Part shown: positions 6,764 to 39,924 of the stretch, piece after piece
Layout: each line of letters begins with the position of its first letter
Position numbering within the stretch: position 1 is the stretch's first letter
Virus record (IMG/VR): IMGVR_UViG_3300006929_000024
Coordinates: 1 to 50,898 of that record
From: a virus
Strand: one strand, 5' to 3'
Length of the DNA: 50,898 nt
The notes under the pieces: model-generated
What the model saw: only the letters and a program-made list of their open reading frames with translations
What the model was told of the DNA's origin: nothing
Databases searched by the model: none
Translations under genes and position numbers: made by a program

Positions 6764-8344
6764 ATGCACAAAGAACTGTACAAGCTTTTTGTGACAGGTG
6801 AGAAGTCGTTTGTAAAGCTCTCTCTTACGGGAGAGAGTGATACAAATGGCAAGAAACAAGCTAAATATGTCACGATTCACGAACCAATTACACCAAGTAT
6901 ATGGAAAGACCATTTAGATGGAAAATATGGTATTGGTCTTAAACCAGAAATAGAAGACGAATGTTCTTGGGGTTGTATTGATTTAGACCCTAATGATTAT
7001 GAAAATTATTCAGCACAAAAATATATACAAGTTATACAAAAATTTAATTTACCCTTTATACCTGTATTATCAAAATCAGGTGGCTTACATTTTTTTGTTT
7101 TTTTAAAAGGTTTTATTAAAGCAGATAAGTTAAGACAGAAACTACAAGAATTTAATGAGATGTATTTTCTAAGTAATGAGGTATTTCCGTGTAATAAAAC
7201 AATTAACATGCCTTACTTTAATATGAATAGCACTATGGAGTTTGCATATAATGACCAAGGCACACCAGTTTTAGTAGGACAGTTTTTAGAGATAGTAAAG
7301 TCAAAAGCAATTACCCCAAAAGATTTTTTAAATTTTAAATTACAAGATAATGATGTTGAGAGAGATTGGAAACATTATCCACCTTGCGTACAAAAATTAG
7401 TACAAGATGGATGGGCAGGTAAAATGAGACATCAGTTTTTATATAATGTTGCAGTTTTAGAGATGAAAAAAAGAGTTGGTATAAACTATGTTGATCTTGA
7501 TAAAATTATGCAAGAAAGAAACAACAAAATATTTACCAACCCATTACCACCTACTGAAGTATCTCAAATGACTAAAGGTATACACAAAGAAGGTTATGGT
7601 TATCAATGTCCACCGAAACACAATGAGTATACACCAATATGTAATTACGAATTATGTAAAAGTAGAAAGCTAGGAAGGGGTGAAGAGACACCTGGTATTA
7701 TAGATAAGTTTACAAACATTACGTATGTACAAGATACAAAAAGTGTATGGTTTGAATTTGATTACGAAGGTCAACACATTACAGTTACACCAGATGATAT
7801 GAAAGATGAAAAAAGTTGGAGAGTAAAATTATTACGATACAGAGTATACTGGCTGACATTACCTAAACCAAGAAAAGGACCAAGTCAGTTTGAGATGTTA
7901 ATGAAAGCAATTGTAGAAAAATCTGTAGAAAGTCAAGACCATAGATATGCAGATAGTGTAGAAGAAGAACGATATGAAATATTAAAGAAGTTTTTTGAAA
8001 GTCATATAGAACAAGATAGATTTGAAAAACTCAAAGATGGTTATGTGGTGTTAGATAGTAATACAAATATATGTTACTTCAAAAAAATTACCTTAGCTAG
8101 TTTTTTACAAAAGAGTGGGACTAAAAGTTTTGCGAATCCTATGATTGCATTACGAATGTTAAATTGTAAAAAAATAGATTATCATGAAGGTGAGAAAAAT
8201 ATATGGACTGTAGAAATGCCTGAGTTTGTAAAACATAAAACAGTAAAGAAAAAACCAAAAGATGATGTAAGTGAGATGGATGATGAATACCACGAAAAGT
8301 TCAGAGCTGCAAAAACACAAAGCTCTGTATCAAAAGACCATTAA
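6764..8344 (+). CDS. Archaeo-eukaryotic primase (AEP)-type DNA primase
   Basis: AEP motif I appears as GCIDLDPND (D73, D75) and motif II as SKSGGLHFFVFL (S/H motif, H109), the metal- and nucleotide-binding sites of primase/polymerase enzymes. Downstream, a cysteine set (C208 in YPPCVQ, C282, C293, C298 in the CNYELCKSRKLG segment) resembles the four-Cys arrangement of the primase large-subunit iron-sulfur region. The C-terminal 220 residues are less recognisable. It should synthesise primers for the family A polymerase downstream. It starts 2 nt after the SSB-like gene and overlaps the helicase gene. Confidence 0.8.
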   Translation: MHKELYKLFVTGEKSFVKLSLTGESDTNGKKQAKYVTIHEPITPSIWKDHLDGKYGIGLKPEIEDECSWGCIDLDPNDYENYSAQKYIQVIQKFNLPFIPVLSKSGGLHFFVFLKGFIKADKLRQKLQEFNEMYFLSNEVFPCNKTINMPYFNMNSTMEFAYNDQGTPVLVGQFLEIVKSKAITPKDFLNFKLQDNDVERDWKHYPPCVQKLVQDGWAGKMRHQFLYNVAVLEMKKRVGINYVDLDKIMQERNNKIFTNPLPPTEVSQMTKGIHKEGYGYQCPPKHNEYTPICNYELCKSRKLGRGEETPGIIDKFTNITYVQDTKSVWFEFDYEGQHITVTPDDMKDEKSWRVKLLRYRVYWLTLPKPRKGPSQFEMLMKAIVEKSVESQDHRYADSVEEERYEILKKFFESHIEQDRFEKLKDGYVVLDSNTNICYFKKITLASFLQKSGTKSFANPMIALRMLNCKKIDYHEGEKNIWTVEMPEFVKHKTVKKKPKDDVSEMDDEYHEKFRAAKTQSSVSKDH

Positions 8345-12951: not shown

Positions 12952-13168
12952 AATTAAAAACTTTTTAATGGAAGTAGAAGAAGAGTTTTATGATATTGCA
13001 GAAGAAGATTGTTATGATGATGCTTTAAATCATATTGAACGTAAGTTTGGCACTATGGCAAGAGAGCATTGTGAATCTTTAATAAAAGAAAACCCTTATC
13101 TTGGTAATGAACCAAGTAAGGTGGTAAATTGTATGATGAAGGAAAATTTACGTCATGACGAAAGCTAA
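12944..13168 (+). CDS. Small acidic hypothetical protein, GTG start (74 aa)
   Basis: GTG at 12944 is preceded by GAAGG at normal distance. The protein is strongly acidic in its first half (EVEEEFYDIAEEDCYDDAL), a composition seen in early phage inhibitors and DNA mimics. That resemblance is only compositional. It overlaps the PP-loop gene by 14 nt. Confidence 0.65.
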   Translation: MSKIKNFLMEVEEEFYDIAEEDCYDDALNHIERKFGTMAREHCESLIKENPYLGNEPSKVVNCMMKENLRHDES

Positions 13169-14027
13169 AGAACTTATACGCAGAACCGATAGAGTGTCAG
13201 GTTTCGACCTAGATACTCCAGGTTGTATTAGTTTTTCTGGTGGTAGAACATCAGGATATATGCTACGTCAAATATTAGATTTTTATGACAATAAGTTGCC
13301 AGAGGATGTAAAAGTTGTTTTTTCGAATACTGGCAAAGAAATGCACGAAACATTAGATTTTGTACGAGATTGTGAAGTAAACTGGGATGTCAAGATCCAT
13401 TGGATTGAGTGGGATGAGGAGAATAAAGTTATAGAAGTAAACCATAACTCCGCATCACGAAACGGGGAGCCTTACGATAAACTAATTACAAAAAGAAAGT
13501 TTTTACCTAATCCAGTAACAAGATACTGTACCTCTGAACTAAAAATAAAACCTATGAAAGATTTTATGATGTCGAAGGGACATAATTATTGGGTAAACTA
13601 TGTTGGTCTACGTTACGATGAACCACATAGAGTAGCAAGATTATCACGAGCCAAGGACAAAGAAAGATGGGACAGTGAAGCACCATTGCATATAGAAAAG
13701 AAATCAGTAAGGGATGTAGCTGCGTTTTGGAAAAACAATAGCTTCGACCTTAAATTACCTGCTATCAATGGTAAAACACCATTAGGTAATTGTGATTTAT
13801 GTTTCTTGAAGGGTAAGAATACCATCATGAATATTATGAAAAACTACCCAGAAAAAGCACAATGGTGGATGGATCAAGAAAAAAAGCAGCTCGGAACCAA
13901 GTCAAAAGATGGATTTAAATTTAGACACGATAGACCAGATTATAAAACTTTGCTTGAAATAAGTAATAGCCAAATGGATTTGTTTGACTTTGATAAGTCA
14001 GATGACGTGTGTTTTTGTCATGATTAA
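13155..14027 (+). CDS. PP-loop ATP pyrophosphatase, PAPS reductase-like
   Basis: Residues 26-36 (SFSGGRTSGYM) form the SGGxxS PP-loop of the adenine-nucleotide alpha-hydrolase family, which activates substrates by adenylation. Cys-containing sites follow: RYCTSELKIKP, GNCDLCF and a terminal CFCHD (C286, C288). These could bind metal or carry sulfur. Phage members are usually labelled phosphoadenosine phosphosulfate reductase, but the surrounding replication genes suggest a nucleic-acid modification (for example thiolation) is at least as likely. The substrate is not known from sequence. Confidence 0.8.
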   Translation: MTKAKELIRRTDRVSGFDLDTPGCISFSGGRTSGYMLRQILDFYDNKLPEDVKVVFSNTGKEMHETLDFVRDCEVNWDVKIHWIEWDEENKVIEVNHNSASRNGEPYDKLITKRKFLPNPVTRYCTSELKIKPMKDFMMSKGHNYWVNYVGLRYDEPHRVARLSRAKDKERWDSEAPLHIEKKSVRDVAAFWKNNSFDLKLPAINGKTPLGNCDLCFLKGKNTIMNIMKNYPEKAQWWMDQEKKQLGTKSKDGFKFRHDRPDYKTLLEISNSQMDLFDFDKSDDVCFCHD

Positions 14028-14042: not shown

Positions 14043-14249
14043 ATGGACAATAAAAATTGGAAAAGTATAACAGTCAACATAGATGATTACCATGCAGTAC
14101 GTGGTATATCACAAATGAAAAGCAGAAAACTTTCTGGGACTATTATAAAATTGATAAACGACTATATAAAAAATGTAGCAAAAGATAATAAAGAAGATTA
14201 TGATAAATTTAGAAAAAAATTAATTAAAATGTCAAAAAACGGAGGATAA
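14043..14249 (+). CDS. Ribbon-helix-helix-like small protein, candidate regulator
   Basis: Residues 6-38 (KSITVNIDDYHAVRGISQ followed by RKLSGTIIKLINDYI) fit the ribbon-helix-helix layout: a short beta strand, helix, turn with G, and second helix. The 68-aa size and basic C-terminus also fit. RHH proteins bind palindromes as dimers. It is encoded in the operon behind the TTATCCGATAA promoter at 12438, so autoregulation and control of the other palindrome promoters is a testable idea. An AAAGGAG SD precedes the ATG. Confidence 0.6.
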   Translation: MDNKNWKSITVNIDDYHAVRGISQMKSRKLSGTIIKLINDYIKNVAKDNKEDYDKFRKKLIKMSKNGG

Positions 14250-15520: not shown

Positions 15521-16036
15521 ATGCCACAGAGAAGTAAACAGGTTAGAACAATAGACGATTTAACAATAAAACAAAAAAAGTTTATTGATATATTAGTTAG
15601 TCAATGGGGACAAATAACAAAGACAGATGCTTTGTTACAAGCTGGCTATAAAACTAAAACAAAAGATGCTGCAATGGTTATGGCAAGTAAATTAACAAAT
15701 CCAAATGCTAATCCACATGTGTGTAGATACCTTGAACATAAACTAAGTAAAGAACAAGAAAAATATGAAAAAGATAAATTAAGAAGATATAAAACCTTTG
15801 AAAGACTTAGAGATGGAGCAGAACAGAAAGGACAATACACAGGTGCAATTAATGCAGAATTTCGTTCAGGTCAATTAGCAGGTCAATTTGTAGAAAAAAA
15901 AGAAGTCTTACATAGTAGTCTTGAGGGTATGAGTAGAGAACAATTAGAAAAAAGATTACAAGAATTGGAGAAAAAAATAGATGATGGCGGCACAATAATT
16001 GATGTAACTCCAATAACAAAAAAGATAAAAAAATGA
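15521..16036 (+). CDS. terS: Terminase small subunit
   Basis: The N-terminal segment LTIKQKKFIDILVSQWGQITKTDALLQAGYK (quoted in part) and the ASKLTNPNANPHVCRYL block match the helix-turn-helix DNA-binding domain of Terminase_2-type small subunits. A Lys/Glu coiled coil (about 80-110) and an acidic-to-basic C-terminal tail follow, as expected for oligomerisation and contact with the large subunit. It recognises viral DNA for packaging. It is unusual in lying about 4.7 kb upstream of the large subunit, separated by the cassette region. Confidence 0.82.
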   Translation: MPQRSKQVRTIDDLTIKQKKFIDILVSQWGQITKTDALLQAGYKTKTKDAAMVMASKLTNPNANPHVCRYLEHKLSKEQEKYEKDKLRRYKTFERLRDGAEQKGQYTGAINAEFRSGQLAGQFVEKKEVLHSSLEGMSREQLEKRLQELEKKIDDGGTIIDVTPITKKIKK

Positions 16037-16446
16037 ATATTAAAATAGTAAATAAAATAAATGACGTTAATGTAAATGATGATCCTGTTAGAAAAAATTT
16101 AAGTTATAAATTTAGAACTACACAAGGTAGAAAAATTTATACTATCGTAAATAAAGCAGTTGTTTGTGTAGCTAACACAACTAAGGTGCCAACTAATATA
16201 CAGGAGTTAAGAAAATTTTCTAATGAAGACACAAATGAATTTTCTATATTTTATACTTTATGGAGTTATGAAAAAGGTTATGGAACTATAATTTTAAATA
16301 CTTTATTACCTATGTTAAATACAAAAAAATTTGTAACTTTATCTCCAAAAACTAAAATGGCTTACAATTTTCATATAAAAAATGGTGCAAAACTACTAGC
16401 TATAAATAATAAAAGTTATAACTTTGAGTATAAAAATGAAACTTAA
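16033..16446 (+). CDS. GNAT-like acyltransferase-fold protein
   Basis: The C-terminal half contains YTLWSYEKGYGTIILNTLLPML followed by FVTLSPKTKMAYNFHIKNGAK. It resembles the acetyl-CoA-binding and final beta/alpha part of GNAT proteins (G-x-G loop, then L-S-x-x-T-x-M-A-x-x-F-H-x-x-N-G-A), a pattern seen in phage proteins. The N-terminal 50 residues are less clear. The acceptor is unknown. Its start overlaps the small terminase stop (ATGA). Confidence 0.6.
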   Translation: MNIKIVNKINDVNVNDDPVRKNLSYKFRTTQGRKIYTIVNKAVVCVANTTKVPTNIQELRKFSNEDTNEFSIFYTLWSYEKGYGTIILNTLLPMLNTKKFVTLSPKTKMAYNFHIKNGAKLLAINNKSYNFEYKNET

Positions 16447-16822
16447 AAATAAACTTACTGAGAAAAAAATTTGGAACTATCTTAACCAGTTTCAAAAAGA
16501 AAACAAAGAAGCTCATTTTACTAGGATAGAAAGCTCTACAATCAACGGAATACCTGATGTTTATTGTGTTCACCAGGGTTATAGTTTTTGGTTAGAATTA
16601 AAAGCGAATGAAGTTAAGAATTGCAATATGTCAAAATTTCAAATGGTATGGCATATCAATAATAAACGTGCTGGTGGTAATTGTTTCATCTTGAACTGGC
16701 CCCTCTTGGAACTTGGTCCTAAACTTCTTGAAGTCCGTGAACCGAATGCCGTGGTTCCCGTTTCTACAGTTCCCGTTCCCGTTCTACACATTCTATTATG
16801 GTTAGAGGATCAGGTCCTGTAG
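16436..16822 (+). CDS. VRR-NUC domain nuclease with repeat-derived C-terminal tail
   Basis: NGIPDVY (D41) and FWLELKA (E54, K56) are the PD-x(n)-E-x-K catalytic core of VRR-NUC (Holliday-junction-resolvase-like) nucleases. ATG 16436 is preferred over 16424 because of the GAG 7 nt upstream. The family's core ends near residue 95; the remaining 33 residues (VVPVSTVPVPV...) are a translation of the GC-rich TTCCCG repeat element that begins at 16754, so the natural C-terminus appears to have been replaced or extended by the repeat. Confidence 0.8.
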   Translation: MKLKNKLTEKKIWNYLNQFQKENKEAHFTRIESSTINGIPDVYCVHQGYSFWLELKANEVKNCNMSKFQMVWHINNKRAGGNCFILNWPLLELGPKLLEVREPNAVVPVSTVPVPVLHILLWLEDQVL

Positions 16823-17024
16823 CAGCCCAGCCAGGGCCGCATGGCAAAACACAGCTCCCGTTCCCGTTACAAATCCCAGACTTCTGGGGTTTTTTAGTTA
16901 GGAGGGACAGGATGGCCGCGGGATCGCACGGGAAAACGCTGTTCCCGTTCCCGTTGCAAAGGTTGGTTTTCTGGGGTTTTTTATAGTTAAAGCGTTTCCG
17001 GCCCTGCGCGCAGCGGGAAAACGC
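16754..17024 (+). repeat. GC-rich repeat block R1 (three units: 16754-16854, 16855-16940, 16941-17024)
   Basis: Each unit opens with (C/T)CCCGTTCCCGTT, passes through a T-tract (CTGGGGTTTTTT in units 2 and 3), a TAGTTA or TATAGTTA word, and a GC-rich 3' half ending in CGGGAAAA. Unit starts are about 85 bp apart. Unit 2 contains GGGATCGCACGGG (as in R3 and R4), and unit 3 contains CGGCCCTGCGC (as in R3). This block fills most of the gap between the nuclease gene and the next promoter and is far richer in G+C than the genome. Confidence 0.85.
16875..16895 (+). terminator. Terminator-like hairpin in R1 unit 2
   Basis: CCCAG (16875-16879) pairs with CTGGG (16884-16888) across ACTT, followed by G and T6. 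It probably ends the terminase/nuclease transcript. Confidence 0.55.
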
Positions 17025-17089
17025 ATCATGGAAATGCCCAGTTTTCTGCGTGTTCCGTGAGCTGTCTGGCTGGCAGCTTTCCCAGGCAC

Positions 17090-17105
17090 AGCAGCAAAAG
17101 CTGCT
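17090..17105. repeat. 6-bp hairpin AGCAGC-AAAA-GCTGCT touching the -35 box
   Basis: A perfect GC-rich inverted repeat whose last base is the first base of the TTGACA at 17105. It could be an additional operator or the 3' end of an upstream hairpin. There is no gene in 16823-17159, only repeats, this hairpin and the promoter. Confidence 0.45.
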
Positions 17106-17141
17106 TGACATCCTGTGAAGCCCTGTTATATTATCCTATAA
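17105..17141 (+). promoter_or_regulatory. Promoter of cassette A with palindrome (one mismatch)
   Basis: TTGACA (17105-17110), a 16-nt spacer and TATATT (17127-17132) make a near-consensus promoter. The palindrome copy TTATC-C-TATAA (17131-17141) overlaps the end of the -10 box and the expected start site. AACGGAGGAAAAA follows as the ribosome-binding site. Confidence 0.7.
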
Positions 17142-17159
17142 ACAACGGAGGAAAAACAC

Positions 17160-17450
17160 ATGATAATAACTTTAAGTAAACAAAATTTTTTGGAGCAGGT
17201 GCGGCAGCACTCACGCTGGAAGCAATTCAGCTACGAGGCGTGGGAACAAATCTTCGAATGGGAAGAAGAGAGAAACGACAACAACAACAACGAGTATGAC
17301 CCTGTAGCCTTTTGTTGCGATTATGCAGAGTATAGTTCTTTTGACCAACTAAAGGATGATTACAGTGACATTGAAAGCAAAGAAGATTTAGAAGGACAGA
17401 CTTGGGTTAGTTACTTGCCTGAGGGTCGTATATTAATGAGGCAGTTTTAA
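17160..17450 (+). CDS. Small acidic conserved protein (96 aa)
   Basis: The pattern EYDPVAFCCDYAEYSSFDQLKDDY followed by an acidic helix and a short basic end (GRILMRQF) recalls a widespread family of small acidic proteins found in phages and bacteria (D-P-x-A-x-C-C-[DE]-[FY]). No biochemical role is known to me. The acidity is compatible with a DNA mimic, but that is only a suggestion. The first 120 nt are noticeably richer in G+C than neighbouring genes. A strong SD (GGAGG) precedes it. Confidence 0.75.
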   Translation: MIITLSKQNFLEQVRQHSRWKQFSYEAWEQIFEWEEERNDNNNNEYDPVAFCCDYAEYSSFDQLKDDYSDIESKEDLEGQTWVSYLPEGRILMRQF

Positions 17451-17554
17451 TGGGTGCCTTTCTCGCTATTGTTGCAATGTTTGTGATGTTATATCCAAAG
17501 GGTGCAATGTTGTTCGGCATCTTCTTAATTTTATTTATAGCTTATTTAATATAA
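17450..17554 (+). CDS. 34-aa membrane peptide
   Basis: It starts on the last base of the preceding stop codon (TAATG). Two hydrophobic stretches (residues 2-15 and 19-34) separated by YPKG suggest a small helical hairpin in the membrane. It is the last gene of cassette A, immediately before the R2 repeat. Confidence 0.55.
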   Translation: MGAFLAIVAMFVMLYPKGAMLFGIFLILFIAYLI

Positions 17555-17555
17555 G

Positions 17556-17640
17556 TCCCGTTCCCGTTCCCGTTGCAAAAAGTAACGGGAGTCTCTTGTT
17601 TAAGTTACAGGATGGCAGCCGTGCCGCCGGAGCGGGAAAT
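17556..17640 (+). repeat. GC-rich repeat unit R2
   Basis: Three tandem TCCCGT repeats (17556-17574) form a 7-bp hairpin with AACGGGA (17584-17590). TTAAGTTA and a GC-rich half ending AGCGGGAAAT (17631-17640) follow. This copy lacks the poly-T tract, so it is not a canonical terminator. Confidence 0.8.
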
Positions 17641-17673
17641 GGGTTTGTTTCAAAAAAGTGAAAAAATATTTTT

Positions 17674-17712
17674 TTGACAAGTGTCTTTATATATACTATA
17701 ATTATCGGATAA
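17674..17712 (+). promoter_or_regulatory. Perfect-consensus promoter of cassette B with exact palindrome
   Basis: TTGACA (17674-17679), exactly 17 nt, and TATAAT (17697-17702) match the sigma70 consensus at every position. TTATC-G-GATAA (17702-17712) begins on the last base of the -10 box and covers the predicted start site, an ideal repressor position. The leader then carries AACGGAG. Confidence 0.88.
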
Positions 17713-17730
17713 TCAAAACGGAGAATAAAA

Positions 17731-17922
17731 ATGGATGAAATCACAAAACTAATGTTACAAGACCCTAGTTTCATAGAAGCTATGAAAGATTTTGAGGCAA
17801 GAGGTTTTATAAAAGTAAAGAAAGAAGGTGTCTTAATAATTAATAGAGAAGGTCTAATGGAGTATATGAAAGACTTTGGTAAAGCCCCTGACCACTTTCC
17901 AAAGGTAGAAGAAGATGTATAA
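17731..17922 (+). CDS. Hypothetical protein (63 aa), cassette B gene 1
   Basis: A mixed helical protein (MDEITKLMLQDPSFIEAM then FEARGFIKVKKEGVLII). It has a short beta-like segment and an acidic end. No family was recognised. An AACGGAGAATAAAA leader precedes the ATG. It overlaps the next gene by 8 nt. Confidence 0.7.
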   Translation: MDEITKLMLQDPSFIEAMKDFEARGFIKVKKEGVLIINREGLMEYMKDFGKAPDHFPKVEEDV

Positions 17923-18076
17923 CTATTATGTAATTCATGTCGACTATGGTAAGAAGACTATTGAAGCTAGTACAACCTATGAGGCATGTAAAAAATTTGC
18001 TCAACACTTTGGTCTAAGGAGTACCAGAGGTATAGATGCGTTTTTAATGACGCAAAAGGTGGTTGCTGATGTCTAA
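17915..18076 (+). CDS. Hypothetical protein (53 aa), cassette B gene 2
   Basis: Starts 8 nt before the previous stop and ends 8 nt inside the next gene. The pattern YYVIHVDYGKKTIEASTTYEACKKFAQHFGL, then a basic turn and a helix, suggests a small alpha/beta fold. There is no known family. Its place in a three-gene chain supports it. Confidence 0.6.
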   Translation: MYNYYVIHVDYGKKTIEASTTYEACKKFAQHFGLRSTRGIDAFLMTQKVVADV

Positions 18077-18296
18077 AACAAAAAAAAGAAAACTAGCTAC
18101 GCAAAAGCAATTGGATTTGGTTAAGGACAAAATGTTAGACTTGATGGAAGAAATAAAAGAAGATGTTGAGGTGCCCCAATTTATTTACGCATCCCAGTTT
18201 CTTATAGCTCAATTAGCATACGACACTGCACCAAATCACAACGAAGCAACAAGAATGTTATTGGGTAGTATTATTACCCATTTACAACAAAGATAA
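18069..18296 (+). CDS. Hypothetical helical protein (75 aa), cassette B gene 3
   Basis: ATG 18069 follows AGGTGG at normal distance; the TTG at 18063 is less likely. The protein begins with a very basic stretch (SKTKKRKLATQ) and continues as amphipathic helices. No family was recognised. It ends 9 nt before the terminator hairpin of repeat R3. Confidence 0.65.
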   Translation: MSKTKKRKLATQKQLDLVKDKMLDLMEEIKEDVEVPQFIYASQFLIAQLAYDTAPNHNEATRMLLGSIITHLQQR

Positions 18297-18300
18297 TTCT

Positions 18301-18480
18301 CGTTCCCGTTCCCGTTTCATACGGGAACGGATTTTTTTTATATATAGTTAAAGAAGCTGGCCAGGGATCGCACAGCACGGGTGGGAAAAGTAACTCTTGT
18401 TCCCGTTCCCGTTTTGAAAGGCAACAGAAATTTTTTTTCTTATAAGTAGTTTTACGGCCCTGCGCCAGAGCGGGAAATGA
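18301..18480 (+). repeat. GC-rich repeat block R3 (units 18301-18390 and 18399-18480)
   Basis: Both units start with GTTCCCGTTCCCGTT. Unit 1 has an exact 18-bp word in common with R4 (GCTGGCCAGGGATCGCAC at 18356-18373). Unit 2 shares CGGCCCTGCGC (18455-18465) with R1 unit 3 and ends AGCGGGAAATG, as in R2. Each has a T8 tract after its hairpin. There is no gene in 18297-18580. Confidence 0.85.
18306..18339 (+). terminator. Strong terminator built from the TTCCCG repeat
   Basis: CCGTTCCCGT (18306-18315) pairs perfectly with ACGGGAACGG (18321-18330) across TTCAT, followed by A and T8. It ends cassette B. Confidence 0.85.
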
Positions 18481-18525
18481 AATCATATTCTCGATTGTCT
18501 TACATTTGAAAATAAAAAAAATCGT

Positions 18526-18555
18526 TTGCGTTATCCGATATATATAGTATAATTA
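18526..18555 (+). promoter_or_regulatory. Promoter of cassette C with palindrome (one mismatch) in the spacer
   Basis: The -10 is a perfect TATAAT (18548-18553) embedded in TATAGTATAATTA. The -35 TTGCGT (18526-18531, 16-nt spacer) runs into TTATC-C-GATAT (18531-18541). The layout equals that of the promoter at 12438. AAAACGGAGGAAAAA precedes the ATG. Confidence 0.65.
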
Positions 18556-18580
18556 TATTTTAACCAAAACGGAGGAAAAA

Positions 18581-19177
18581 ATGGGATTTGATTTATACGG
18601 ACAAAATCCAAAACTAAAAGGAGAAGAACCTTATATTGATTGGACTAAAAAGCCATCAGATGAGGAGAAGAAAAAATACTTCAAAGCTAGAGAAAAATTT
18701 GAAGAACAAAATCCAGGTCATTATTTTAGAAATAATGTTTGGTGGTGGAGACCATTAGCAAATTATGTTTTGCAGTTAATGGCAAATGAGTTCACAGAAG
18801 ATGAAATGAAATCGTGGCATCACAATGACGGTTTTGAAGTTAGTGGAGAACAAGCTCAAAAAATTGCTGATAGACTTGAGCAAGAACTAAAAACAAATCG
18901 AGTAAAAACTGTAGAAGAGTTTTATAAAGTAAAGATGAAGAAAGCAGAAGAAGAAAATAAAATCGTGGAACAGAAGCACCAAGAATTAAAAAAGATTGTT
19001 GCAGATAAAACTGGAAAAGACAATCTAGTTCCTAGAGATTATCCAGAACCATTTAATAGTCAATGGAATGATATTCAAAAGCAGTTTAATTACGAATCTT
19101 CCTATCCATTTTCTGAAGAAAATGTAATTGACTTTATGAAGTTTTGTCGTGAATCTGGAGGCTTTCAGATTTGTTAG
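18581..19177 (+). CDS. Conserved MGFDLYG-type hypothetical protein (198 aa), cassette C
   Basis: The opening MGFDLYGQNP and the later HYFRNNVWWWRPLANYV followed by an NDG motif and a KIADRLEQEL helix are the hallmarks of a widespread uncharacterised family that I recall in phages and bacteria. Residues 110-150 are a Lys/Glu-rich insertion that looks like a coiled coil. The end (DFMKFCRESGGFQIC) is also typical. The function is unknown. It is the only gene between its promoter and terminator. Confidence 0.8.
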   Translation: MGFDLYGQNPKLKGEEPYIDWTKKPSDEEKKKYFKAREKFEEQNPGHYFRNNVWWWRPLANYVLQLMANEFTEDEMKSWHHNDGFEVSGEQAQKIADRLEQELKTNRVKTVEEFYKVKMKKAEEENKIVEQKHQELKKIVADKTGKDNLVPRDYPEPFNSQWNDIQKQFNYESSYPFSEENVIDFMKFCRESGGFQIC

Positions 19178-19196
19178 AAGCTTTTTCACTTTTTGG

Positions 19197-19232
19197 AGAG
19201 GGAGTGTTTTATTTAGCACTCTCTCTTTTTTT
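19197..19232 (+). terminator. Rho-independent terminator of cassette C
   Basis: AGAGGGAGTG (19197-19206) pairs with CACTCTCTCT (19217-19226; one G-U) across a 10-nt loop, followed by a T-tract. It lies before, and is separate from, repeat R4. Confidence 0.8.
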
Positions 19233-19252
19233 ATTGTATTGGAGAACTTGAG

Positions 19253-19390
19253 CTCCCGTTCCCGTTTCAAAAGGTAACGGAATTTTTTTCTTTATAGTTA
19301 GGAGGCTGGCCAGGGATCGCACGGGTGGGGAAATACTTGTGCGAACTCCGATGGATGCCCGTTCCCGTTTCGAAAGATAACGGAATTTTT
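19253..19390 (+). repeat. GC-rich repeat block R4 (unit 19253-19345 and partial unit 19358-19390)
   Basis: Unit 1 has CTCCCGTTCCCGTT, a CCGTT/AACGG hairpin (19262-19266 with 19276-19280) and a T7 tract. TATAGTTAGG and the shared GCTGGCCAGGGATCGCAC (19305-19322) follow. Unit 2 keeps only the hairpin and T-tract. No gene occupies 19178-19603; besides the repeats it holds the cassette C terminator and cassette D promoter, and 19395-19530 is plain AT-rich DNA. Confidence 0.8.
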
Positions 19391-19530
19391 ATTACCTGGT
19401 ATTAGAAAAAATCGCCAGCTGAAATTTTTTTACAAAAATTAAAAGCGTTTAAATGCGTCAGTTTGAAATTCAAGGTAGTTTAGTACCTATAAAAATATAA
19501 AAAAAAGTTAAAAATAAATGTTTTTTATCC

Positions 19531-19561
19531 TTGATTTTATCGGATAAGTCTGTATTATAAT
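19531..19561 (+). promoter_or_regulatory. Promoter of cassette D with exact palindrome
   Basis: TTGATT (19531-19536) is followed directly by TTATC-G-GATAA (19537-19547), and a perfect TATAAT lies at 19556-19561 (19-nt spacer, slightly long). The palindrome position matches the promoters at 12438 and 18526. The leader ends in AAGGAGTTTAAA before the ATG. Confidence 0.62.
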
Positions 19562-19603
19562 AGATAAGACTTTTATTAATACCAAAAAAACAAGGAGTTT
19601 AAA

Positions 19604-20697: not shown

Positions 20698-22170
20698 ATG
20701 AACTCAAAAAACTTACCTACAGAAAAACTAAGGCTCGAAGTAGAAAAGAAGTGGATTCAGCATGTAAAGTTTTGTCAGGATAACTTTTTGTATTTTGTTA
20801 AAGAGATATGGCCAGAGTTTATATATCGTAAAACTACAAACAAGAAAAACATAGGACACCATCAACTTATCTCAAATGAGTTTACAAAAATAGCTTCTGA
20901 GAAAAAAGGAAGGCTCATCATAAACATGCCCCCTAGACATACTAAATCTGAATTTGCTTCCGTATATTTTCCTGCCTGGATTATTGGTAAGTATCCAAAA
21001 ATGAAAATTATGCAAGTGTCTCATAATACTGAACTGGCCGTAAGGTTCGGGAGTAAAGTGCGTAATATCATAGACTCACCAGAATACAAACAAATTTTCG
21101 GAGATGTTAAATTAAGAGAAGACTCAAAAGCAAAAGGTAGATGGGAAACAAACAAAGGTGGAGAATATTATGCAGCTGGTGTTGGAGCATCAATCACGGG
21201 TCGTGGAGCTGATTTATTGATTATTGATGATCCACACACGGAACAAGATTCTATGTCTGATATGGCTATGGAACGTGCATATGAATGGTACACTTCAGGA
21301 CCACGACAAAGATTACAACCTGGAGGCTCAATATTATTAGTAATGACAAGATGGGCAGAAGATGATTTGACTGGCAGATTGTTAAAGGCTCAAACGGAAC
21401 CTAAAGCAGATACATGGAAACAAATTTCTTTTCCAGCGATCCTCGAATCAGGGAACCCAGTATGGCCTGAATATTGGACCCTAGAAGAATTAGAAAAGTT
21501 AAAAGCTTCTGTACCAATTAGGAATTGGTCAGCCCAGTACATGCAAGAACCAACTTCTGATGAAGGAGCTATAATAAAACGAGAGTGGTGGCAACCTTGG
21601 GAGAAAGAAGACATACCTAATTTGGTGCATATTATACAAAGTTATGATACAGCATTTAGTAAAAAAGAAACTGCTGACTATTCTGCTATTACGACTTGGG
21701 GTATTTTTTATCCTGATGAAGTAACACCCAATATAATTTTACTTGATGCACTTAGAGGTAAATATGATTTTCCTGAACTCAAAGCTGTTGCATTAGATAC
21801 GTATAAATATTGGGAACCTGAAACGATAGTGATAGAACAAAAAGCAAGTGGCGAACCTTTAACGCAAGAATTTAGAAGAATGGGTATACCTGTTGTACCA
21901 TTTGTACCGACTAAGGGTAATGATAAACATACCAGAGTAAATGTGGTAGCTCCTATTTTCGAGAGTGGTCAGGTATGGTATCCTTATGGAGAAAAATTTG
22001 CCGAAGACGTGATTGACGAATGTGCAGCATTTCCAAATGGTGCCAACGATGACTATGTAGACAGTATGTCCCAAGCAATGTTAAGATATAGAAAAGGCAA
22101 TTTTGTTGAATTATATTCTGACTACATAGACAATGAGGATAGAATTCCTAAAGAATATAATTATTATTGA
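20698..22170 (+). CDS. terL: Terminase large subunit
   Basis: The ATPase domain has a variant Walker A PPRHTKSE (78-85), Walker B LLIIDD (173-178) and a coupling motif region (VMTRWAEDDL). The RNase H-fold nuclease domain shows YDTAF (D317), IEQKASG (E380) and DDYVDS (451-456). The 490-aa length is normal for the family. It cuts and pumps DNA into proheads through the portal encoded 2.6 kb downstream. The start is fixed by an upstream stop. The transcript is probably leaderless or the promoter lies further upstream. Confidence 0.96.
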   Translation: MNSKNLPTEKLRLEVEKKWIQHVKFCQDNFLYFVKEIWPEFIYRKTTNKKNIGHHQLISNEFTKIASEKKGRLIINMPPRHTKSEFASVYFPAWIIGKYPKMKIMQVSHNTELAVRFGSKVRNIIDSPEYKQIFGDVKLREDSKAKGRWETNKGGEYYAAGVGASITGRGADLLIIDDPHTEQDSMSDMAMERAYEWYTSGPRQRLQPGGSILLVMTRWAEDDLTGRLLKAQTEPKADTWKQISFPAILESGNPVWPEYWTLEELEKLKASVPIRNWSAQYMQEPTSDEGAIIKREWWQPWEKEDIPNLVHIIQSYDTAFSKKETADYSAITTWGIFYPDEVTPNIILLDALRGKYDFPELKAVALDTYKYWEPETIVIEQKASGEPLTQEFRRMGIPVVPFVPTKGNDKHTRVNVVAPIFESGQVWYPYGEKFAEDVIDECAAFPNGANDDYVDSMSQAMLRYRKGNFVELYSDYIDNEDRIPKEYNYY

Positions 22171-34129: not shown

Positions 34130-34855
34130 ATGGGTGCGGTTAAAGATTTTTTTACAAAAGGAACATTGTTTGGTAAGGAACCAGATGTTATGGCAAGAGA
34201 CGTTAAACCTGTTAGAGGTAGAGGTGGTGCTGATCAATTTGGTAGAATAATAAAAACGAAATCAGTAAAAGAAAAAAAAGCAGCTAAAAGACAAGCAGGT
34301 TTTGATAAGGCTAGAAAATCAGCTGGAATGTCTACTGAAGGAAATATTTCTAAAGCAGGAAAACAAGGAAAAGCTATGCCTGTAGGAACAAGAACAGGAG
34401 CTAAACCAAAAGTACAATTTCCAAAAACAACAGGTAGCTATAAAATTAAAAAAGGAGATACTTTAAGTAGTATTGCAAAAGCAAGAGGAACAACTGTTGC
34501 TGCAATAATGAAAGCAAATCCAAATATAAAAGACAAAAACAAAATTAGACTTGGTGCTGGACTCAAAGGTGTTCCAGGAGCACAAGGTTCATCTACTATA
34601 AAGAATATTGCTGATGCTGGTCCAAAAGGCAAACCAGCTGAAGTAGGAACTAAATACGGAGAACTCTATAAAAACAAAGGTAAAAAGAAAAAGACAACCT
34701 CAAAAGCAGAAAGAGGCAAAAGAGACTTTAAAGCTTTAAACTTTTTTAAAACAACAGATAAGCAAAAACAAAGAAGAGCTGATTTAAAAGCAAAGTTTGG
34801 TAAAGCTGAAGGTGGTATGGCCTCTATGGATGATTACATGAAAGATTTACTATGA
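34130..34855 (+). CDS. LysM domain protein, paralogue of the 2018 gene (241 aa)
   Basis: Residues about 103-150 (SYKIKKGDTLSSIAKARGTTVAAIMKANPNIKDKNKIRLGAGLK, quoted in part) are a LysM domain almost identical in pattern to that of the gene at 2018. It is flanked here by long Lys-rich segments and ends AEGGMASMDDYMKDLL. It overlaps the next gene by ATGA. A cell-wall-binding virion protein is likely. Confidence 0.8.
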   Translation: MGAVKDFFTKGTLFGKEPDVMARDVKPVRGRGGADQFGRIIKTKSVKEKKAAKRQAGFDKARKSAGMSTEGNISKAGKQGKAMPVGTRTGAKPKVQFPKTTGSYKIKKGDTLSSIAKARGTTVAAIMKANPNIKDKNKIRLGAGLKGVPGAQGSSTIKNIADAGPKGKPAEVGTKYGELYKNKGKKKKTTSKAERGKRDFKALNFFKTTDKQKQRRADLKAKFGKAEGGMASMDDYMKDLL

Positions 34856-39006: not shown

Positions 39007-39924
39007 ATGGCTTCAACATACTCAGCAGATTTAAAACTGGAACTCATGGCTACTGGTGAAAACGCTGGTACATGGGGAACAAAAACAAATAACAATTTAA
39101 ATTTAGTACAACAAGCAATCGGTGGATTTGAACAAGTAACAGTCGGGGATGGTGCTACAGTCGCACTTGCAATGACTGATGGTACAGTATCAAACGCAAG
39201 AAATATGGTTGTAAAAGTGGCTACTGTTACCCTATCAGGAGCCACTGTTTTAACTGTACCTGATAGCATAGAAAAAATGTATATTTTCGATGTAACAGGT
39301 GTAACCAACCCAACAAACTTAACTATTAAAACTGCAAGTGGATCTGGCTTTTCTCCAGACCAACAAAAAATATATTTTGCATATGCAGACGGAACTAATA
39401 TTGTAGAAGTATCATTAGATAGTTTAGGTGGTGCAGTTGGTGTAGCAAGTTTACCAACAGTAACTGTAGCAAAAGGTGGTACTGGTTCAACATCAGCATC
39501 CGATGCAAGAACTGCTTTAGGTTTAGCAATAGGTAGTGATGTTCAAGCTTATAATGCTGATACAGTTTTTAAAGATGTAAACAATACATATACAAAAGCA
39601 CAAAGAGGATCAACACAAACTGCTGGTTCTCAAACTGGTAGTGTTACATTAGATTTTGACACTTATCAAAACTTTGTTTTAACGGCAACAGGTAATGTTA
39701 CATTAGCTAATCCTTCTACTGAATCAGTAGGACAATCTGGTATTATAGTGTTTGTTCAAGATGGTACTGGAAGTCGTACGTTAAGTTTAGGAACAGATTA
39801 TGAAACTGCTGGTGGTGCTGGTTTGACTATATCCACTGCTGCTAATTCAGTTGATGTCATACCATATTTTGTTAAAGCTGCCTCAAGTATTCAGCTCGGA
39901 GCACCGCAACTTGCTTTTGCGTAG
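39007..39924 (+). CDS. Tail fibre protein
   Basis: The N-terminus (MASTYSADLKLELMATGENAGTWGTKTNNNLN, quoted in part) is the standard beginning of many marine phage tail fibres. VAKGGTGSTSASDARTALGL with QAYNADTVFKDVNNTYTKAQRGS are the collagen-like/trimer-forming repeat motifs of phage fibres. The C-terminal part is beta-rich. It probably trimerises and attaches to the tail. Confidence 0.8.
   Translation: MASTYSADLKLELMATGENAGTWGTKTNNNLNLVQQAIGGFEQVTVGDGATVALAMTDGTVSNARNMVVKVATVTLSGATVLTVPDSIEKMYIFDVTGVTNPTNLTIKTASGSGFSPDQQKIYFAYADGTNIVEVSLDSLGGAVGVASLPTVTVAKGGTGSTSASDARTALGLAIGSDVQAYNADTVFKDVNNTYTKAQRGSTQTAGSQTGSVTLDFDTYQNFVLTATGNVTLANPSTESVGQSGIIVFVQDGTGSRTLSLGTDYETAGGAGLTISTAANSVDVIPYFVKAASSIQLGAPQLAFA

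Follow-up and report, generated by a model that had tools for sequence, protein, structure and literature searches.

Arrays of lineage-specific words at fixed places between the terminase genes of HTVC023P-type pelagiphages: possible iteron- or operator-like DNA sites

The window analysed here is the whole stretch of 50,898 nucleotides of the IMG/VR virus record IMGVR_UViG_3300006929_000024, and the genome that carries the array is that of an HTVC023P-type pelagiphage. Eight repeat units, all on the + strand, were found at 16754–19419 in four gaps (A to D) between the TerS and TerL genes. The genes and units are as follows:

14043–14249, + strand: c7, predicted ribbon-helix-helix (RHH) DNA-binding protein (AlphaFold2 pLDDT 92.7), candidate partner of the words
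15521–16036, + strand: TerS-like gene, left border (phrog_641, E 7.7e-5; Pfam Terminase_2, E 0.0011, short of the Pfam cut-off)
16424–16822, + strand: c0, Holliday-junction (HJ)-resolvase/VRR-NUC-type nuclease gene (PDB 4qbo, E 0.01; Pfam Hjc)
16754–16854, + strand: unit A1, words at 16754–16783, GC block at about 16814–16844, overlapping the end of c0
16855–16938, + strand: unit A2, including a terminator-like hairpin at 16871–16892
16939–17024, + strand: unit A3, with GC block CCGGCCCTGCGCGCAGCGGGAAAACGC, a block type conserved at that position
17160–17450, + strand: c8, small gene (phrog_9974)
17554–17640, + strand: unit B, beginning directly 3' of a stop codon
18298–18389, + strand: unit C1, strong terminator-like hairpin at 18306–18330, then T8
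18397–18478, + strand: unit C2
18581–19177, + strand: c2, lying between unit groups C and D in most relatives
19195–19228, + strand: separate terminator-like hairpin, 3' of c2 and 5' of the D units
19251–19333, + strand: unit D1, inverted-repeat ends TCCCGTTCCCGT...ACGGGNGGGA and a variable interior
19356–19419, + strand: unit D2, words and T-tract without a GC-rich 3' half
20698–22170, + strand: TerL gene, right border (phrog_38, E 9e-119; 72% identical to HTVC023P TerL)

The motifs G-P-D, E-L-K and S-K-Q are invariant in the c0 family, and Pfam Hjc matches c0 in three of ten relatives (best 5e-4); a single-sequence structure prediction of c0 was of low confidence (pLDDT 54) and was left out of the argument. 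As the first-pass annotation had stated, one unit invades a gene end: the first unit overlaps the 3' end of the ORF at 16424–16822, so that the last codons of c0 (...VPVSTVPVPV) are the first word string. The first word lies within the final codons of this HJ-resolvase/VRR-NUC-like gene in the word flavours inspected.

We observed that the exact 12-mer CCCGTTCCCGTT is present in all eight units (at 16772, 16857, 16944, 17557/17563, 18305, 18402, 19255 and 19358), always on the + strand, and has no exact copy in the window outside the array, which confirms the earlier proposal of a real repeat family with a single orientation. When up to two mismatches were allowed, 15 matches were found in the window against 0.66 expected, a number that none of 100 shuffles reached. 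Thirteen of these lie in the array on the + strand; of the remaining two, one coincides with the − strand arm of the hairpin at 18306–18330 and the other is isolated at 39681. The exact 18-mer GCTGGCCAGGGATCGCAC was indeed common to C1 and D1 (18356–18373 and 19305–19322), as was the second motif, CGGCCCTGCGC, to A3 and C2 (16999–17009 and 18455–18465); the word TATAGTTA, thought to be shared by the units, was exact in only three of them (16982, 18343 and 19293). The T-tract is generally present but missing from the unit at 16754 and weak in that at 17557, and the GC-rich 3' half is likewise general but lacking in the unit at 19358. The GC content of gap A (16823–17159) is 53%, against 26–37% in the other gaps. 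The words are 6, 7 or 8 bp long and are directly repeated, as a rule two to four times per array.

Further copies exist in related viruses, with the same array found at matching positions in at least 25 other IMG/VR contigs. Because the array recurs in these contigs and, with a different word, in the isolate HTVC027P, an assembly or cloning artefact, the possibility that could have overturned the first-pass annotation, is excluded. Its remark that no named element has this structure stood within the searches made here. A first 15-mer scan gave mostly matches resembling in-gene repeats of unrelated phages, and one pattern run against GTDB genomes in search of a bacterial origin returned only two single matches (Sphingopyxis, Pontibrevibacter), probably due to chance.

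The words themselves differ among relatives, in which GTTTCCC, CCGTCCCG, TTTCCCGA or AATCATAT occupies the same interval, and in nearly every locus examined the commonest word is absent outside it. Words can be mixed within one genome, as in L148, with CCCACTT in gap D and GTTCCC in gaps A–C, and almost no array is left in HTVC023P. Gene content between the fixed unit positions also varies, and gain or loss of single units was seen: A2 is absent in L164, and in both L140 and L164 one unit stands for C1 and C2. The GC blocks are hypervariable, a property that a reading of the units as iterons or operators leaves unexplained. G-quadruplex formation or outer-stem pairing was considered as a common principle and dropped, since the reverse complement is lacking in the CCGTCCCG-word phages.

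In the complete 57.6 kb genome of the cultured phage HTVC027P, the interval contains 16 GCTTGNN heptad pairs, all on one strand (array sequence GCTTGNNGCTTG), compared with one elsewhere; Markov-resampled HTVC027P genomes yield 0.03 pairs each by chance. The words stay on the + strand beside − strand genes in both HTVC027P and 023Pt_psg01, and arrays of both completely sequenced phages (HTVC027P, about 17719–17737; 023Pt_psg01, locus L221:6950) lie between divergent genes, where there is no gene 3' end. In these sequences, word direction tracks the genome and not the adjacent genes, and this independence of gene direction argues for a signal at the level of DNA rather than of the transcript. 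The first-pass annotation had missed both main features, namely a word that changes between lineages at a fixed location and a strand that is kept whatever the local gene direction.

In the window, a promoter-like site with a TTATCSGATAA-like operator comes after the last unit of each gap, and six such operators were found in all against 0.86 expected; the sites after gaps A to D are:

17105–17134, + strand: sigma-70-like promoter of c8 (TTGACA-18-TATTAT), operator-like TTATCCTATAA at 17131
17674–17702, + strand: consensus sigma-70 promoter (TTGACA-17-TATAAT), operator-like TTATCGGATAA at 17702
18531–18541, + strand: operator-like TTATCCGATAT in the c2 promoter
19531–19558, + strand: promoter-like site, operator-like TTATCGGATAA at 19537

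The last word lies 138–298 nt from the next start codon in 19 genomes. Outside HTVC027P the words are about 100–200 bp upstream of promoters and not on them (about 100–170 bp in the window), and a sigma-70-like −35 box adjoins some arrays. At both the gp33 and the gp34 promoter of HTVC027P, an array runs straight into the TTGACA; a published RNA-seq study (PMC12753301) reports these genes alone in an additional temporal cluster, and it is this one classification of two genes that links the arrays to expression. A role of TATAGTTA/TATATATAA as a late promoter was unsupported, TATAGTTA also occurring elsewhere in the window without pattern. As far as sequence can tell, the arrays, their confinement, fixed polarity and lineage-specific words, their start inside the nuclease gene and their position relative to promoters are established.

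When a non-coding feature stays in place and yet has its entire sequence replaced from lineage to lineage, a co-evolving recognition system is indicated. We tentatively favour, at somewhat under an even chance, the view that the units are DNA-level iteron- or operator-like sites that co-evolve with a phage protein. The units would be cis-acting sites in which iteron words stand beside GC-rich, partly palindromic blocks, located in the spacers that precede the small genes, each with a promoter of its own, between terS and terL. A sequence-specific phage protein would most likely recognise the words and evolve with them, which would give every lineage a private word at unchanged positions; the units may control or organise the interval, through the timing of the small genes or in an operator- or centromere-like role. 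We infer the binding of a protein to the words, its identity and its effect on expression.

Short direct-repeat words are the kind of target that RHH proteins bind cooperatively, and the modelled protein c7 is a candidate RHH partner, with evidence against it as well. Its best fold and profile matches (MatP, CopA(SO), Arc, CopG, E73 and ParG) all have E > 0.04 and are consistently RHH. Its beta strand reads S-T-N in the GTTCCC lineages versus mostly S-A-R/K in the rest, although individual words are not tracked. HTVC023P possesses c7 with almost no array, and in L206 and L172, both of which have AATCATAT words, a search of the 9 kb upstream of TerL revealed no c7. The traits of RHH operator arrays found here are short tandem direct repeats and an RHH-fold protein in the same genome; overlap with promoters is seen at gp33/gp34 of HTVC027P, whereas the window units lie upstream. 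Omega of pSM19035 binds 7-bp repeats that overlap promoters (PMC9499535), and cognate ParR/parC pairs diverge together (PMC9426499). The phage arrays resemble parS (Omega/ParB of pSM19035) and parC (ParR) in their short direct repeats, in having several arrays near promoters, in repeats that differ between families, there along with the binding protein (PMC9499535, PMC9426499), and in that the phage group encodes an RHH fold. They differ in having far fewer contiguous words and an attached GC-rich inverted-repeat block; moreover, genomes with the RHH gene and genomes with the words do not coincide, and binding is putative.

It is rather unlikely that the units are intercistronic terminators or insulators, each ending the upstream transcript and shielding the next small-gene cassette. 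Several do resemble intrinsic (Rho-independent) terminators in having a hairpin and then T's near a gene end: B and C1 begin right after stop codons, a hairpin with a T-tract is present at 18306–18330 and at 16871–16892, the window genes in the region all point one way, and seven terminator-like sites were counted there against 3.5 expected (sd 2.0), a weak excess. However, A1 has no such hairpin and that of B is weak, gap D has its own terminator upstream of its units, and terminators stand alone in relatives, as in L181, a GTCCC-word phage with a canonical terminator and, after it, a unit that has no T-tract. Termination requires neither word nor GC block, nor does it fit the arrays between divergent genes. 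The earlier proposal of terminators therefore applies to some units and not in general; transcript ending by some units would be a secondary, lineage-dependent property.

We consider it improbable that the units form part of a pac-like zone for packaging or concatemer processing that TerS or its partners would recognise, even though the interval is flanked by terS and terL in the lineages examined, has a fixed genome polarity and species-specific words, as pac sites next to terminase genes do, and begins with an HJ-resolvase-like nuclease. TerS identity to the window also drops as the word departs from GTTCCC while TerL identity does not, but the correspondence with the word is equally good for the neighbours of TerS. 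Eight sites dispersed over 2.7 kb among genes are unlike a single pac site, a pac function for them is putative, and the isolate genome records begin arbitrarily at a CDS. Phage T7, with short repeats near its genome ends, was considered for comparison.

Small-gene exchange by homologous or homeologous recombination at the units, as cassette linkers, is quite improbable as well. Consistent with it are the variable gene content between fixed unit positions and the Mantel correlations of gene-identity matrices, which are 0.51–0.67 where no unit intervenes (0.67 for TerS-c0 and for c1-TerL), versus 0.15 for c0-c8 across gap A and 0.40 for c2-c1 across gap D; between L159 and L128, identity is 93% for c0, 74% for c8, 66% for c2 and 91% for c1. 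Nevertheless, c8 and c2 are linked (r 0.53) despite unit groups B and C between them, no in-region breakpoint of recent exchange fell inside a unit in contigs with long similar tracts, and L162/L164 break about 100 bp inside c2. Of the recombination points suggested earlier, the weak linkage, lowest across gap A, agrees with the idea and the breakpoints do not.

There is a similarly small chance that the words form a phage-encoded DNA address. A lineage-private word on one strand would then label the interval, at the head of which stands the resolvase-like nuclease gene with the first copy in its 3' end. The word would be read by the nuclease itself or by a cognate protein, either to discriminate between own and foreign phage DNA or to guide recombination or packaging, and a switch of word would set lineages apart.

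GC-rich palindromic units in the spacers of an AT-rich genome, gained and lost one by one, are known from the GC clusters of yeast mitochondrial DNA and from double-hairpin elements, a family described as mobile (PMC4478555). The phage units share these features and a variable interior, but self-spreading or passive amplification is very unlikely for them: they occupy the same gaps in many genomes instead of varying sites, on one strand without inverted insertions, are absent from the rest of the window and of HTVC027P, and share a word within each genome that changes as a whole set between lineages.

It is highly improbable that the units are small structured RNAs or act in RNA processing, given the absence of covariation and of a folding strand bias: inverted-repeat ends and a mean folding z of about −1 over 75 units (0 for control sequence) are offset by similar z on both strands, zero to one compensatory pairs in two ortholog sets, no covariation of note in consensus folding of orthologous units, and a polarity that in two relatives does not depend on the direction of transcription. 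The small-RNA genes suggested at first thus found no backing, the Rfam scan giving no gathering-level match (one match, E 3.9, was far below its cut-off) and the tRNA scan nothing. A covarying GC hairpin sought by regular expression, TTTCC[AG]GC...GC[GT]GGAAA, had G-G mismatches in half of the cases and was rejected.

The reading of the units as iteron- or operator-like sites can be tested directly, since a version of the array, together with two array-preceded genes of unusual published RNA-seq timing, is present in HTVC027P, which is cultured on SAR11 HTCC1062. Pelagiphages of the HTVC023P type infect SAR11 bacteria and are very common across the ocean, and almost nothing is known of their gene control, in which such sites may take part.

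In the window, a virus record of 50,898 bp, a search found the word CCCGTTCCCGTT as exact copies at 16772, 16857, 16944, 17557/17563, 18305, 18402, 19255 and 19358, on the + strand throughout; with up to two mismatches there were 15 matches versus 0.66 expected. The units fill four gaps, and the remaining intergenic gaps of the genome lack the word. Among the gaps of the window, gap A has a GC content of 53%, against 26-37% elsewhere. The 18-mer and the 11-mer that the first-pass annotation had described as shared between units are both present. Separately, a 150-bp pair (2021-2170 and 34418-34567, 75% mutual identity) lies far apart in the genome, each copy within an ORF.

Unit-bearing gaps (units on the + strand) and palindromic sites of the window
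16823-17159, gap A, filled by units
17451-17730, gap B, filled by units
18297-18580, gap C, filled by units
19178-19603, gap D, filled by units
17131, TTATCSGATAA operator-like palindrome
17702, TTATCSGATAA operator-like palindrome
18531, TTATCSGATAA operator-like palindrome
19537, TTATCSGATAA operator-like palindrome
12443, TTATCSGATAA operator-like palindrome
9857, also a TTATCSGATAA operator-like palindrome

At its 5' end a unit has a word string, which a hairpin and T-tract usually follow; next come a TTATAGTTA-like stretch and a GC-rich block ending in CGGGAAA. These blocks are typed by position (A3, CCGGCCCTGC...GCGGGAAAACGC; D1, GGATCGCACGGGNGGGA), and their interior differs even among close relatives, while the termini of D1 are near-invariant inverted repeats, TCCCGTTCCCGT...ACGGGNGGGA. 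Gain and loss involve whole units: A2 is missing in L164, and C1/C2 form a single unit in L140 and L164.

The array is flanked by a TerS-like gene and the TerL gene, whose product is 72% identical to that of pelagiphage HTVC023P. In about 20 related contigs the order is TerS, c0 (resembling VRR-NUC/Hjc nucleases), units A, c8, units B, variable small genes, units C, c2, units D, c22/c18, c1, TerL. These units recur in at least 25 contigs from IMG/VR. The one combined pattern searched against 84,980 bacterial and archaeal genomes gave two matches only, each single. A phosphoadenosine phosphosulfate reductase-like gene (phrog_424; 13155-14027) lies 5' of TerS, and the small gene c9 (17731-17922) has a weak, below-cut-off match to a Crp-like HTH (PF13545, E 0.0034).

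In relatives that lack GTTCCC, different words occupy the corresponding interval: GTTTCCC, CCGTCCCG, TTTCCCGA, CTCGTAC and the AT-rich AATCATAT. The cultured HTVC027P has 16 GCTTGNNGCTTG matches on the + strand at 16506-17726 and one in the rest of its whole genome; 023Pt_psg01 has GCTTGCTCGCT and GGGCCCACCC. In the GTTCCC, GTTTCCC, GTCCC, AATCATAT, HTVC027P and 023Pt_psg01 flavours, the first word string falls within the final codons of the c0 nuclease gene and continues beyond the stop, giving protein tails such as VPVPV, FPVSRFPF, SLSRPAPSRP, HIPNHIPN and CGLKLEPCCLGLEACGLHLE. The array is mostly gone from HTVC023P itself, and none was seen in a few other relatives inspected for words (L178, L196). 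In L148, gap D (7905-8060) has the word CCCACTT, whereas gaps A-C have GTTCCC; the GC block beside it (GGATCGCACGGGCTGGGA) is still of the usual type. HTVC027P also contains an unannotated ORF (L222:3638-4009) with the c0 nuclease signature, whose C-terminus is encoded by heptad repeats; gp32, annotated on the - strand, overlaps them and may be spurious.

Among the alternatives, which we rank behind an iteron- or operator-like function, termination draws on the good terminator-like hairpins within some units; however, separate terminators adjoin units in gap D and in L181. In HTVC027P (about 17719-17737) and 023Pt_psg01 (L221:6950), moreover, arrays lie between divergent genes, so at those two sites they cannot be 3'-end elements. 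A role as cassette linkers is also ranked lower. The interval is mosaic (for example, L159 versus L128), and pairwise gene-identity correlation, which between neighbours without intervening units is 0.67 (TerS-c0), 0.67 (c1-TerL) and 0.51 (c5-TerS), is almost lost across gap A (c0-c8, r 0.15, p 0.075) and weaker across gap D (c2-c1, r 0.40), but persists across B and C (c8-c2, r 0.53). Contigs that share tracts with 93% identity or more showed few breakpoints, and no unit contained one. In L162/L164 a recent exchange broke inside c2, about 100 bp into the gene (about 2750 in L164), the two being practically identical from there rightwards through TerL and only about 70-80% identical leftwards. 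With breakpoints outside units, and few of them, the correlations indicate that units mark the mosaic just coarsely. A packaging zone, selfish repeats and RNA likewise rank behind sites read on DNA. On the question of RNA, units fold with only a small advantage over shuffled sequence (mean z about -1), equally on both strands, and their alignments showed no covariation of note.

Evidence for DNA sites comes from strand and position. In HTVC027P and 023Pt_psg01 the words keep the + strand although the interval has - strand genes, and in the gp33 and gp34 promoters of HTVC027P they extend into TTGACA; these two genes alone are reported to form an extra temporal class in a published RNA-seq study (PMC12753301). 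Together with the operator-like palindromes described next, strand, position and promoter data favour putative DNA sites linked to how separately expressed small genes are controlled or organised.

Every unit gap of the window also has a TTATCSGATAA-like operator within a promoter-like site (six palindromes in the window versus 0.86 expected). These palindromes belong to promoters of small genes that lie between units and are kept 5' of c8, c2 and c22 in most relatives, which hints at a small regulon under a repressor or activator of its own. Candidate partners for the words are the nuclease-like c0 and c7. The latter (14043-14249), conserved in most relatives, is confidently predicted as a ribbon-helix-helix DNA-binding protein, its nearest folds being the MatP DNA-binding domain, CopA(SO), Arc and CopG. 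This fold binds 7-bp direct repeats at promoters (PMC9499535). Because c7 and word occurrence disagree in HTVC023P, L206 and L172, we regard c7 as a candidate only.

The array is a real, recurrent feature of an abundant phage group and, as far as we searched, undescribed. Our best reading, held tentatively and at slightly less than an even chance, is that the units may be iteron- or operator-like DNA sites with a putative co-evolving reader.
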